The notes below the pieces were generated by a model. The model worked only from the letters and a program-made list of their open reading frames with translations. It was not told where the DNA came from and searched no databases. A DNA stretch of 64,000 nt from Desulfosudis oleivorans Hxd3. Its GTDB lineage: Bacteria > Desulfobacterota > Desulfobacteria > Desulfobacterales > Desulfosudaceae. Positions 5,387 to 8,470 of the stretch are shown here, in pieces (within the stretch, counting starts at the first letter, position 1; each line of letters starts with the position of its first letter). The position numbers were made by a program, and so were the translations under genes. The DNA lies in NCBI RefSeq assembly GCF_000018405.1, contig NC_009943.1, positions 1,925,001 through 1,989,000 on the forward strand. The letters are read 5' to 3'.

Positions 5387-6868
5387 ATGGCAAAAATATT
5401 GAACATTTTTGAAGCGGCTATTTTACTGAAAATGTCACCCCTCCTTTTAAAGTGGTTCATTTCATATTCTCCAAAGTACAAAGAAAAAAGAAAACTTTCA
5501 TATGCAGATCATAAAGATGAAATGTACTTTTTCGATAAACACGAATTGCTGAATTTTAACAAGTATTTAAGTATGCCGTGGCCTGCAAAGAAAGAAGATC
5601 AACGACCAATTGTTCCAAGCGGCATTGAGAATGAGATTAAATCAGAGTGCAAATTCAGATGTGTTATATGTAATCATGCATCTGGTCATATAGCCCATAT
5701 TGATCCAATTCATAACAGCAAGAACAACCATCCCCATAATCTGATTTATTTATGCCCGAATTGTCACGATTTGTATGATAATAAAAAAACTATAAGTAAG
5801 AATCAAATTGCAAATTTGAAAAAGAACTTGTTGCATACGAAAATCGTCATATGGAAAAGCTATTTATTTCTAATAGATTCAGTATCTTCATTAATTAAAG
5901 AGCTGAAAATAGTTAAGCATGAGGACTTTACTAATAAGGAGCTAAAAAAAGAAACAATATCTGAGCTTCTACACGAAATTAGAAAGCATGCTTCTGAAGA
6001 ATTTGATACACATCCCAGTGACATAAAAGAGAATGGGACAGAAAAGATATTCGAGGGCTACAGGAAGAGGGTTAGGGAAATTATAGATGAAAATATTGAT
6101 GTAGAAGAAAAGCTCTTCGCTGAAAGAGATACCTATATATTGGAAACTGGAAAAGCTGAATGCCCTCTATGTAATGGCACAGGTGTTCACAATGCTTGGG
6201 AGTGCCCGGTATGCCGGGGCGTTGGCACTGTGGATCAAGAGGCTGTTAATGAAATAGATTTAACTCCATTCAAGCAGGATGAATGTCCCCTGTGTGAGGG
6301 CTCTGGGACTCACAATGCCTGGGAGTGCCCGGTATGTCGGGGCGTTGGCACTGTGGATCAAGGGGCTGTTAATGAAGTAGATTTAACTCCATTCAAGCAG
6401 GAGGAATGTCCCCTGTGTGAGGGCTCTGGGACTCACAATGCCTGGGAGTGCCCGGTATGCCGGGGCGTTGGCACCGTGGACCAAGAGGCTGTTAATGAAA
6501 TAGATTTAACTCCATTCAAGCAGGATGAATGTCCCCTGTGTGAGGGCTCTGGGACTCACAATGCCTGGGAGTGCCCGGTATGTCGGGGCGTTGGCACTGT
6601 GGATCAAGGGGCTGTTAATGAAATAGATTTAACTCCATTCAAGCAGGATGAATGTCCCCTGTGTGAGGGCTCTGGAACTCACAATGCCTGGGAGTGCCCG
6701 GTATGCCGGGGCGTTGGCACCGTGGACCAAGAGGCTGTTGATGAAATAGACTTAACACTGTTTGAACAAGTTGATTGCCCAGAATGCAACGGCACGGGAG
6801 TTGACAATGAGTGGGAATGTCGGGCTTGCAGGGGGATAGGCACTACAGATAGACGTAACTTAGAATAG
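5387..6868 (+). CDS. HNH-nuclease-like protein with helix-turn-helix and six Cys-rich repeats
   Basis: The 493-residue protein has three parts. Residues 1-65 look like a MerR/excisionase-like winged helix (ILNIFEAAILLKMSP...EMYFFDKHELLNF). Residues 84-131 hold an HNH-type zinc nuclease core: Cys92-x2-Cys95, HIAHIDPIH at 101-109, and LCPNCHDLYD with Cys123, Cys126 and His127. A charged helical region follows. From residue 258, six 41-residue repeats each carry CPLCxGxGTHNAWE plus CPVCRGVGT, two CxxCxGxG-like knuckles of the DnaJ zinc-finger type that probably bind Zn and nucleic acid or protein. Codon use is AT-rich until the repeats. The gene has its own promoter-like site and ends 8 nt before an attC-like site. 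It plausibly cuts DNA or RNA; a defence role is inferred only. Confidence 0.82.
   Translation: MAKILNIFEAAILLKMSPLLLKWFISYSPKYKEKRKLSYADHKDEMYFFDKHELLNFNKYLSMPWPAKKEDQRPIVPSGIENEIKSECKFRCVICNHASGHIAHIDPIHNSKNNHPHNLIYLCPNCHDLYDNKKTISKNQIANLKKNLLHTKIVIWKSYLFLIDSVSSLIKELKIVKHEDFTNKELKKETISELLHEIRKHASEEFDTHPSDIKENGTEKIFEGYRKRVREIIDENIDVEEKLFAERDTYILETGKAECPLCNGTGVHNAWECPVCRGVGTVDQEAVNEIDLTPFKQDECPLCEGSGTHNAWECPVCRGVGTVDQGAVNEVDLTPFKQEECPLCEGSGTHNAWECPVCRGVGTVDQEAVNEIDLTPFKQDECPLCEGSGTHNAWECPVCRGVGTVDQGAVNEIDLTPFKQDECPLCEGSGTHNAWECPVCRGVGTVDQEAVDEIDLTLFEQVDCPECNGTGVDNEWECRACRGIGTTDRRNLE
6158..6862 (+). repeat. 123-bp in-frame tandem repeat (6 units)
   Basis: Units begin at 6158, 6281, 6404, 6527, 6650 and 6773, an exact 123-bp period. 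Units 2-5 are nearly identical at DNA level, including silent sites, while units 1 and 6 are more diverged. Even units share QGAVNE and odd units share QEAVNE or QEAVDE. This suggests recent growth by two-unit duplication. Confidence 0.95.
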
Positions 6869-6978: not shown

Positions 6979-7851
6979 ATGAAAAAAGTTGATGGAAATT
7001 GGACAGGGCGTATTACAGGAACAAATAACGCGAATGTGTTCGTCGAAATTAAGCAAGATGGGTCAAAGCTATATGGAATAAGTAGAATAAACGATCCTCA
7101 ATATGGAACATCGGTATACAACTTCACGGGTGTTATAGAGGAAAACATCGTCATTCTATCAATGGTTCCTGATAATAAATTTATCAATAAGCAGGAGACC
7201 CAAGAGGTAATTATAAATGGTCGCAAGATGACGATTACTGCAAATATGGTCAGGTACGGAAATGTAAGCGTGAAGGCAAAGCTTGTAAATAATAGCACTA
7301 TAGAAGGGAAGTGGCAATCAACCATCGGCACAGGCGGAAATCTATTTCTTATAAATGAAAAAGAAAAATCCGCTGCCCCTCAAGAAACAAGCACAACTGG
7401 AAAGAAAAATACAGTTTTTATAAGTTATAGCCATGAAGACCAAAAACACTTAAAAAGGCTACATGTTCACATCAAGCCTTTGGAGAAAAAGGGCCTTGTA
7501 GACGTATGGGATGATACAAAACTGATAGCTGGTGATAAATGGCGAGAGCAAATTACATCGGCTTTATCGAAGGCAGCCATTGCAGTGTTGATTATTAGCG
7601 CCGATTTTTTGGCATCTGACTTTATAGTAGATAATGAATTGCCTCCTATCCTAAAAAAAGCAGAATTGGAGGGGACTCTCGTACTTCCTGTAATACTGAA
7701 GCCCTGTAGATTTTTAAGAGAAGATACGCTTTCTCGATTTCAAGCATTGAATCCTCCAGATAAGCCTATTTTATCAATGCCTGAAGTTGAACAAGAAATA
7801 ATGTGGGACAAACTGTCTCAAAGAATAGAAATAGAACTAAATAGATCATAA
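6979..7851 (+). CDS. TIR-domain protein with N-terminal beta-rich domain
   Basis: Residues 1-125 are beta-rich (repeating GNWTGRI, EIKQDGSKLYG, TIEGKW patterns) and have no family I can name; they could sense a ligand. A Ser/Thr/Lys linker leads to a TIR domain at about 144-285: VFISYSHEDQ, VDVWDDTKLIAGDKW, IAVLIISADFLASDF, VDNELPPIL and PVILKPC. Glu220 in NELPP sits where TIR NADases keep the catalytic Glu. Bacterial TIR proteins of this type cleave NAD+ or make signal nucleotides in anti-phage defence. The start follows attC-like site 1 by 42 bases. A metallopeptidase-like gene follows after 64 bases in the same cassette, so the two may work together. Composition is AT-rich, unlike the chromosome. 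Confidence 0.85.
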   Translation: MKKVDGNWTGRITGTNNANVFVEIKQDGSKLYGISRINDPQYGTSVYNFTGVIEENIVILSMVPDNKFINKQETQEVIINGRKMTITANMVRYGNVSVKAKLVNNSTIEGKWQSTIGTGGNLFLINEKEKSAAPQETSTTGKKNTVFISYSHEDQKHLKRLHVHIKPLEKKGLVDVWDDTKLIAGDKWREQITSALSKAAIAVLIISADFLASDFIVDNELPPILKKAELEGTLVLPVILKPCRFLREDTLSRFQALNPPDKPILSMPEVEQEIMWDKLSQRIEIELNRS

Positions 7852-7915
7852 ATTTCATGAGACATTTCGAATGTAATGCGTTTCCTTAATCAAAATAGCT
7901 TTGTGGTTTTGCCAT

Positions 7916-8470
7916 ATGAATCAATTTGACCTCATAGAAAGATTTCGATCCATTTTGCCAATAGTCGAGAAATGGATCGAAGATACATTAGAAAAACATA
8001 ACGCCGATGCAAGACCTGTGATCAGTCTCCCATTTTCACGTTTGAAAGCCATTTTCCCACCTGATTTACTTAATAAGGCGAAGTCAGTTGTAGTCAAAGG
8101 GATGGTGCCTTTTCCACCCCTCAGCCGTATGGGCTTGCCCGAGCTTTCCAGCATGGAAAATATGCCGATGGTAGGTGTTACTTACAAAGATACATTTTTT
8201 GTCAATCATCTTTATCAATCAGAAAGTTTGCATTTTCATGAAATGGTTCATGTCGTGCAGTGGGAAAGACTCGGAATTGAAAATTTCCTGCTTGCTTACG
8301 GATATGGTCTTATTCAATTTGGTTATCAAGGTAGTTCATTGGAAAAAATGGCATATTCTTTACAGGCCAAATTTGACAACGGTGAACTTCCTGGTGACAT
8401 TGTAAGTATTATCCAACAGGAGACAGATGCCATTTGGGATAAAGTGTATAAGTTTATTGCAACGGTATAA
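7916..8470 (+). CDS. HExxH metallopeptidase-like protein
   Basis: ATG 7916 is preferred over the in-frame TTG 7901. The 184-residue protein has HFHEMVHVVQWERLG at about 113-127, a zincin HExxH, followed after about 28 residues by SSLEKMAYSLQ, where a Glu could be the third zinc ligand. The layout resembles DUF4157-type minimal zinc proteases. There is no signal peptide, so it should act in the cytoplasm. It shares a cassette with the TIR gene and ends 8 nt before attC-like site 2. One reading is that it is a protease activating or limiting the TIR effector, but that is inference. The active-site residues look intact. Confidence 0.72.
   Translation: MNQFDLIERFRSILPIVEKWIEDTLEKHNADARPVISLPFSRLKAIFPPDLLNKAKSVVVKGMVPFPPLSRMGLPELSSMENMPMVGVTYKDTFFVNHLYQSESLHFHEMVHVVQWERLGIENFLLAYGYGLIQFGYQGSSLEKMAYSLQAKFDNGELPGDIVSIIQQETDAIWDKVYKFIATV

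Follow-up and report, generated by a model that had tools for sequence, protein, structure and literature searches.

HNH effectors have been described with several kinds of sensor, such as SAVED domains, ATPase partners and guide RNA. The cysteine knuckle that forms the second subject of this study is known from other settings: DnaJ has a J domain and a central domain made of two-zinc quartets, and Anti-TRAP (RtpA) is a lone small protein. The HNH nuclease of Cap5 is activated when its SAVED domain binds a cyclic nucleotide (PMC8568899), Septu is reported to cleave tRNA-Tyr (PMC13096335), and Anti-TRAP is reported to bind a protein (PMC2896485, PMC11255114). In a survey of B. cereus, calls of the candidate system PDC-M01 overlap Septu (PMC11811056).

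Here we describe a gene that joins these themes in a stretch of 64,000 nucleotides from Desulfosudis oleivorans Hxd3 (NC_009943.1, positions 1,925,001 to 1,989,000; hereafter the window, whose own numbering is used throughout). Its product carries a winged helix-turn-helix (wHTH), an HNH core and an array of knuckles. Our literature searches on this architecture found no paper combining HNH, CXXCXGXG knuckles and zinc, none joining HNH, a DnaJ-type zinc finger and anti-phage function, and no title on the architecture.

Domain order of the window protein

An open reading frame of 493 aa is present at 5387-6868 (+ strand), and the order of domains that the first-pass annotation gave for it (winged helix, HNH core, helical linker, knuckle tail) proved correct. 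The features discussed below are as follows.

5387..6868, + strand: wHTH-HNH-knuckle-array gene (open reading frame, 493 aa; full-length homologues share the domain order)
5387..5575, + strand: N-terminal winged helix, MerR/excisionase-like (residues 1-63; predicted model)
5654..5791, + strand: HNH core (residues about 90-135; Pfam HNH_2, model and alignment)
5798..6148, + strand: helical linker (residues 138-254; predicted secondary structure, modest confidence)
6161..6283, + strand: knuckle unit 1, 41 aa (motif scan and unit DNA comparison)
6284..6406, + strand: knuckle unit 2, 41 aa (motif scan and unit DNA comparison)
6407..6529, + strand: knuckle unit 3, 41 aa (motif scan and unit DNA comparison)
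6530..6652, + strand: knuckle unit 4, 41 aa (motif scan and unit DNA comparison)
6653..6775, + strand: knuckle unit 5, 41 aa (motif scan and unit DNA comparison)
6776..6865, + strand: knuckle unit 6, 30 aa, diverged, C-terminal (motif scan)
6979..7851, + strand: TIR-domain neighbour gene (Pfam TIR_2, 1.1e-13; TIR at residues 146-254)

By its sequence the window protein belongs to the HNH nuclease superfamily and is a predicted nuclease. Pfam HNH_2 fell just below its cut-off of 21 bits when the whole protein was scanned (8.2e-4, 19.6 bits) and above it when residues 1-160 were scanned alone (1.8e-4, 21.8 bits). The same profile matched five of five members of A3 at E <= 10 (best 1.3e-5) and, in a second scan, all six family proteins, four of them above the cut-off. 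The core comprises C92, C95, A103-H104-I105, P116, N118, C123, C126, H127 and D131. The Cys/His set that had been called intact (C92, C95, H104, C123, H127) is indeed unchanged, together with D131, in all seven aligned rows; C126 of the window is replaced by H in the remaining six, and N118, the HNH "N", is G in the two Methylobacterium rows.

Since the full-length model was too poor in the HNH core (overall pLDDT 64.5, about 80 over the tail), residues 1-180 were folded separately, giving a model of moderate confidence (pLDDT 76, pTM 0.72) with strands at 101-104 and 119-122 and a helix at 124-131. This model was closest to Cap5, with Z scores of 8.1-8.3 for the best four entries over 85-86 residues (rmsd 2.9-3.3), a value that by the tool's own warning may reflect merely a common arrangement; other Cap5 entries scored 5.6-7.8. 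After the best Cap5 entries came IscB and then EcoKMcrA (Z 7.2), and chains of retron-Eco7/Ec78 complexes, which from their size are taken to be PtuB, scored 5.7-6.6. Foldseek placed EcoKMcrA first (E 7.7e-4; its rmsd, at 14.3, is poor) and Cap5 next (from E 1.4e-3). Among PDB sequence matches of the family profiles, IscB and TagI were best, TagI being the top match for one profile (E 1.2e-3) and the second for another (E 4.8e-4).

Residues 1-63 of the model align with HiNmlR, BldC, RacA, BmrR and the excisionase RdfS (Z 5-6.8) and show a winged-helix fold of the MerR/excisionase type. Support from sequence is weak, with no Pfam call for this region of the window protein and HTH_17 matching one of five family members (E 0.07).

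The initial description of the protein as unlike any nuclease family can be kept for the whole, since no Pfam, PADLOC, NCBIfam or PHROGs profile among the matches listed covers all 493 aa. It has to be given up for the parts: the HNH fold is close to those of Cap5, IscB and McrA, and the PADLOC candidate PDC-M01B has a similar tail and perhaps, judged by eye, an HNH-like core.

The family and its knuckle array

Six further lineages have the same domain order; they are the Methylobacterium/Methylorubrum group, two other genomes, a frameshifted copy and two contigs predicted to be viral. The members are listed here with their locus handles.

L015, Methylobacterium aquaticum plasmid pMaq22A_1p: 519 aa, 6 units
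L017-L023, seven Methylobacterium/Methylorubrum genome loci: 6 units, except M. variabile with 5
L028/L042, genome G428: 487 aa, 5 units of 40-43 residues
L049, genome G1147: 501 aa, 6 units
L058, predicted viral contig: 510 aa, 5 units
L059, predicted viral contig: 444 aa, 4 units
L043, genome G633: broken by frame changes, five units across two frames

The N-terminal parts of seven tailed members, defined as the sequence before the first knuckle, are 31-40% identical to that of the window protein over 157-245 aligned residues. Since the same architecture is found in such distant lineages, it has probably been kept as a unit, and the comparison indicates that the domain combination is a family, which excludes a chance one-off fusion. 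The family tree has long branches and few supported forks, the only firm groupings being the L028-L059 pair and the Methylobacterium trio. The N-terminal 275 aa of the viral protein L059 are 63% identical to L028, the protein of a chromosomal island described below, so that within one subgroup there has been transfer between island and virus. A possible sister form was seen in the metagenome-assembled genome RBG_13_52_11 (L003:1066-1896 / L024:9995-10825), where a protein of 276 aa has a winged helix and HNH, a different C-terminus and no knuckles.

The tail of the window protein holds six CXXC...CXXC units, beginning at residues 259, 300, 341, 382, 423 and 464, where 1000 shuffled tails gave a mean of 0.11 units and a maximum of 2. 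The number six thus agrees with the first-pass annotation; the length of 41 residues given for every repeat holds for the five full-length units, the sixth having 30. The tail matches Pfam DnaJ_CXXCXGXG above its cut-off (3.4e-27) and, with scores summed over several units, Anti-TRAP (PF15777, 9.2e-12, 45.2 bits against a cut-off of 32) and NCBIfam RtpA (78.4 bits against 65). It also resembles an anti-termination Q-like PHROG (1.9e-20).

At the DNA level the array is a tandem repeat with a period of 123 bp, 4.6 copies and 95% matches (TRF). Units 2-4 are identical to one another at 117-121 of 123 bases (2-6 differences), unit 1 is identical to units 2-5 at 99-110 of 123, and unit 5 to the other four full units at 99-111 of 123. 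The near identity of units 2-4, set beside the up to 24 differences of units 1 and 5, implies that the array was recently enlarged or homogenised, and the window copy appears to be a fresh case of array growth. Intact tailed members have 4, 5 or 6 units, and the M. variabile copy has exactly one 41-residue unit fewer. Five units, an odd number, are present in L017, L028 and L058; such counts fit self-contained one-zinc units better than the two-zinc quartets of DnaJ, and we favour self-contained, putative one-zinc knuckles.

At E <= 1e-15 the array was found on no protein beyond its own family among the candidates scored, at most 15 per genome, of two sets of 180 and 178 genomes. The L049 tail, used as query at 1e-5, matched one of 72,556 plasmid records and none of the phage records. 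A two-unit query at E <= 1 matched 31 plasmid records, many of them annotated dnaJ; two further plasmid matches to this query are annotated "hypothetical protein" and "SEC-C domain-containing protein".

Distribution and surroundings of the family

The wHTH-HNH-array family is rare, patchy and mobile. Among 397 genomes of the order to which G396 belongs, three have a tailed member (G396, G428 and, as the broken copy, G633); among 398 genomes of its phylum there are likewise three (G396, G633 and G1147), and among the 30 genomes of G428's own family there is one. The window's class yielded one in 389 genomes and its phylum, in a single-sequence search, one in 395. None of the other HNH matches from the genome searches carries the array in the 24 of 26 that were read by script (all except L013 and L033); a single CXXC...CXXC stretch in L010 is the sole such case among the 24. 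Two queries failed to find the N-terminal part among 50,697 phage records, and neither the window protein nor A2 gave a match when first run against viral contigs. Later scans of viral contigs brought L058 and L059 along with weak partial matches, and further scans returned only one or the other of these two.

Around the window copy the GC content drops to 31-41%, an AT-rich islet shared with the TIR gene in which the array itself stands at about 50%; it is 63-66% downstream and 49-54% just upstream. The gene upstream has no confident Pfam match. Downstream, the TIR protein matches the PADLOC ThsB profile (6.1e-22) at positions 3-105 of 319 only; its first 145 residues have no Pfam match, and it could be a stand-alone effector. 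The next protein (7901-8470, 189 aa) has an HEMVH (HExxH) motif and a single weak match to a metallopeptidase toxin (E 0.23). When the TIR protein and the 7901-8470 protein were compared by tblastn with 13 homologue loci, nothing better than E 0.33 was obtained for either. The TIR gene was therefore rejected as an obligate partner, the 7901-8470 protein has no counterpart at these 13 loci, and the cassette named in the first-pass annotation is unsupported as a conserved unit. For the further proposal that the HTH autoregulates the cassette we found no evidence: the inverted repeats upstream of the window gene are AT-rich, and of three homologues examined one has inverted repeats unrelated to these while the other two lack them. 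With nothing consistent between the window and these three homologues, autoregulation by palindromes was rejected.

L042 lies in a chromosomal island in which SIR2-APAZ and short pAgo genes are followed by an XRE/P-loop gene, the family gene and a gene with partial PD-T7-1/PD-T7-5 matches, after which come genes whose matches are full to PD-T7-1 and near-full to Lit. Since 5 of 10 control ORFs had some PADLOC match at E <= 1e-5, loose matches were rejected as a basis for a defence label, and neighbours were counted only at profile coverage of at least 80%. By this measure four of the seven scanned L042 neighbours qualify (SIR2-PNTD, pAgo_I, PD-T7-1 and Lit), the seven having been chosen from the ORFs of the locus and the others left out, against none of the 10 randomly drawn ORFs, which were called by script from the window's genome instead of L042's and may include some that are not genes. 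The XRE-HTH protein (L042:6731-8959, 742 aa) ends 5 bp upstream of the family gene; a P-loop was seen in it by eye, its Pfam and PADLOC matches cover the HTH alone, and it is a possible partner within this island.

Other members lie in varied surroundings. At L043 two proteins were scanned, and their DUF262 and AbiEii matches span less than one third of most profiles and were not counted. Within about 7 kb of L049 lie genes for TniA, TniB, TniQ, a RES protein and an MBL-fold protein; PADLOC matches to the MBL gene span 60-75 residues and the RES gene has none. Candidate transposon ends around L049 were rejected, the best pairs agreeing at 17 of 30 bases. In a search for an empty insertion site, the neighbouring transporter was matched at 1e-100 in three of 16 genomes only, its own and two at 45% and 38% identity. 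At L022, the sole locus of the Methylobacterium group that was scanned, the neighbours that could be recognised serve metal efflux or other functions outside defence. Directly beside the M. aquaticum plasmid copy are IS200/IS605-type TnpA and TnpB genes (L015:7583-9116).

The viral copy L058 has a phage tail gene (phrog_52) on one side and a phage regulator gene (phrog_603) on the other, which we take to be gene D and ogr of the P2 type. A phage repressor-like XRE gene in the same orientation precedes it by 232 bp, and the tail genes are on the opposite strand; L059 likewise adjoins phage tail genes on the opposite strand. The position of L058 differs from the small hotspot between gpA and gpQ in which E. 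coli P2-like phages are reported to carry anti-phage genes (PMC9122126). The contexts examined share no partner gene, so that of the two properties singled out for a survey among homologues, repeat number and neighbourhood, the first varies from 4 to 6 and the second has no common element.

Proposed function and comparison with known systems

That the family is rare, patchy, found on mobile DNA and once in a dense defence island, and that its HNH is of the type seen in Cap5 and McrA, agrees with a role as an anti-phage effector. We consider it moderately likely that the window gene is a mobile, single-gene effector of this sort, in which the HNH is the cutter and the C-terminal knuckle array the sensor. 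The HNH core would cut nucleic acid as in Cap5 and McrA, DNA being likelier than tRNA. The array, which occupies the position of the sensor in other HNH effectors (SAVED in Cap5), would bind a partner made or exposed by the phage, most likely a protein; such binding would cluster or free the HNH domains and so lead to cutting. Since Anti-TRAP binds a protein, we infer that a protein is the likeliest trigger; that the tail reads a target, as the first-pass annotation had proposed, is plausible. The winged helix may either help grip DNA or set the geometry of a dimer, and the gain and loss of whole units by tandem duplication could tune avidity or specificity. Several observations speak against a role in defence: the neighbours of L022 are of other kinds, glycine replaces N118 in both Methylobacterium rows, the only defence-like neighbour in the window is a TIR domain matching a third of the ThsB profile, L043 and L049 have partial PADLOC neighbours only, the contexts examined have no partner gene in common, and the two queries of the 50,697 phage records gave no match. 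A bolder form of the proposal, which we put forward tentatively and with considerable doubt, is a single-protein immune effector whose expanding, anti-TRAP-like array directly senses a phage protein and licenses the HNH, its units being reshaped by duplication and gene conversion so as to track phage triggers.

The protein could instead be a restriction enzyme akin to type IV, in which the winged helix, the knuckles or both read modified or foreign DNA and the HNH cuts, no partner or signal being needed. The first place of EcoKMcrA in Foldseek, the standing of TagI among the PDB matches of the family profiles, the single gene and the DNA-binding-type fold in front would all suit such an enzyme. 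However, no SRA or other known modification reader appears among the Pfam matches at E <= 1, and we know of no counterpart of the array in EcoKMcrA, TagI or ScoMcrA; we regard this reading as rather unlikely. More improbable is a selfish or accessory gene of mobile elements (a homing-type or maintenance HNH, or a Q-like zinc-tailed phage regulator) with no role in defence. Consistent with it are the plasmid copy, the copies on viral contigs and the occurrence of transposition genes nearby, together with the Q-like PHROG match of the tail and the excisionase/MerR type of the winged helix, but the viral copies lie on the strand opposite to the neighbouring phage tail genes, not among them, and the chromosomal copy at L042 sits in a dense defence island.

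We give the lowest probability, and consider it quite remote, to an effector that cuts tRNA or other RNA with an HNH like PtuB of Septu and retron PtuAB, the array holding the RNA or a partner. The retron-Eco7/Ec78 chains are among the fold matches, Septu is reported to cleave tRNA-Tyr (PMC13096335), and PDC-M01B, whose calls overlap Septu in the B. cereus survey (PMC11811056), has the same kind of tail. Against this, Cap5, IscB and McrA are better fold matches, and no PtuA-type ATPase was recognised among the scanned neighbours of the window gene, L022, L049 and L058; the genes flanking the window gene are the upstream one lacking a confident Pfam match and the TIR gene. The XRE/P-loop gene 5 bp upstream of the L042 copy also bears on this question, and has no PADLOC match beyond its HTH.

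Under the preferred reading, a mobile HNH effector with the array as sensor, the nearest relative in fold is Cap5, which likewise has a C-terminal module behind its HNH. Cap5 carries SAVED, whereas the window protein has a winged helix in front and the knuckle array behind: PADLOC SAVED_HNH matches it at profile positions 73-114 of 387 only, the HNH part, and there is no SAVED. No CD-NTase was found among those neighbours that were scanned at the window, L022, L042, L043 and L049. EcoKMcrA, TagI and ScoMcrA, of type IV restriction, also are single proteins with an HNH fold and a DNA-binding-type domain in front; unlike them, the window protein has a knuckle array and, among its Pfam matches, no known modified-base reader, a part that its winged helix or knuckles could play.

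The closest likeness in the tail is to PDC-M01B, of which positions 289-363 of 366 match the window protein, L015, L049, L058 and L059, five of the six intact members with a tail that were scanned; the exception is L028. Its positions 1-288 are unmatched by the family and there is no full-length match. It belongs to a two-gene candidate (partner PDC-M01A) and has one short knuckle stretch, where the present family has 4-6 units. That PDC-M01B may contain an HNH is suggested by a protein of 361 aa at L070, outside the window in the same genome, that matches its positions 96-148; the HNH-like motif there was seen by eye and has no Pfam match, and the HNH of PDC-M01B is accordingly putative. The L070 gene follows one with an AAA_21 match (G000:C1, about 3,291,100-3,294,300), and the two form a possible Septu-like pair. 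A list of candidates may thus already include an HNH protein whose knuckle tail is short; for the wHTH-HNH-array form we found no existing model.

Finally, Anti-TRAP and the central domain of DnaJ share the CXXCXGXG...CXXC knuckle with the window protein. Neither is a nuclease or has an array of 4-6 units; Anti-TRAP stands alone, whereas the knuckle unit here is one of six in a protein of 493 aa. No J domain is among the Pfam matches of the window protein at E <= 1, and NCBIfam DnaJ_bact reaches 102 bits against a cut-off of 377.2. If our proposal is correct, defence nucleases would have a new kind of trigger, an array of small, countable zinc units within one compact protein, and immunity would be employing a knuckle familiar chiefly from chaperones and from a regulator of tryptophan genes.
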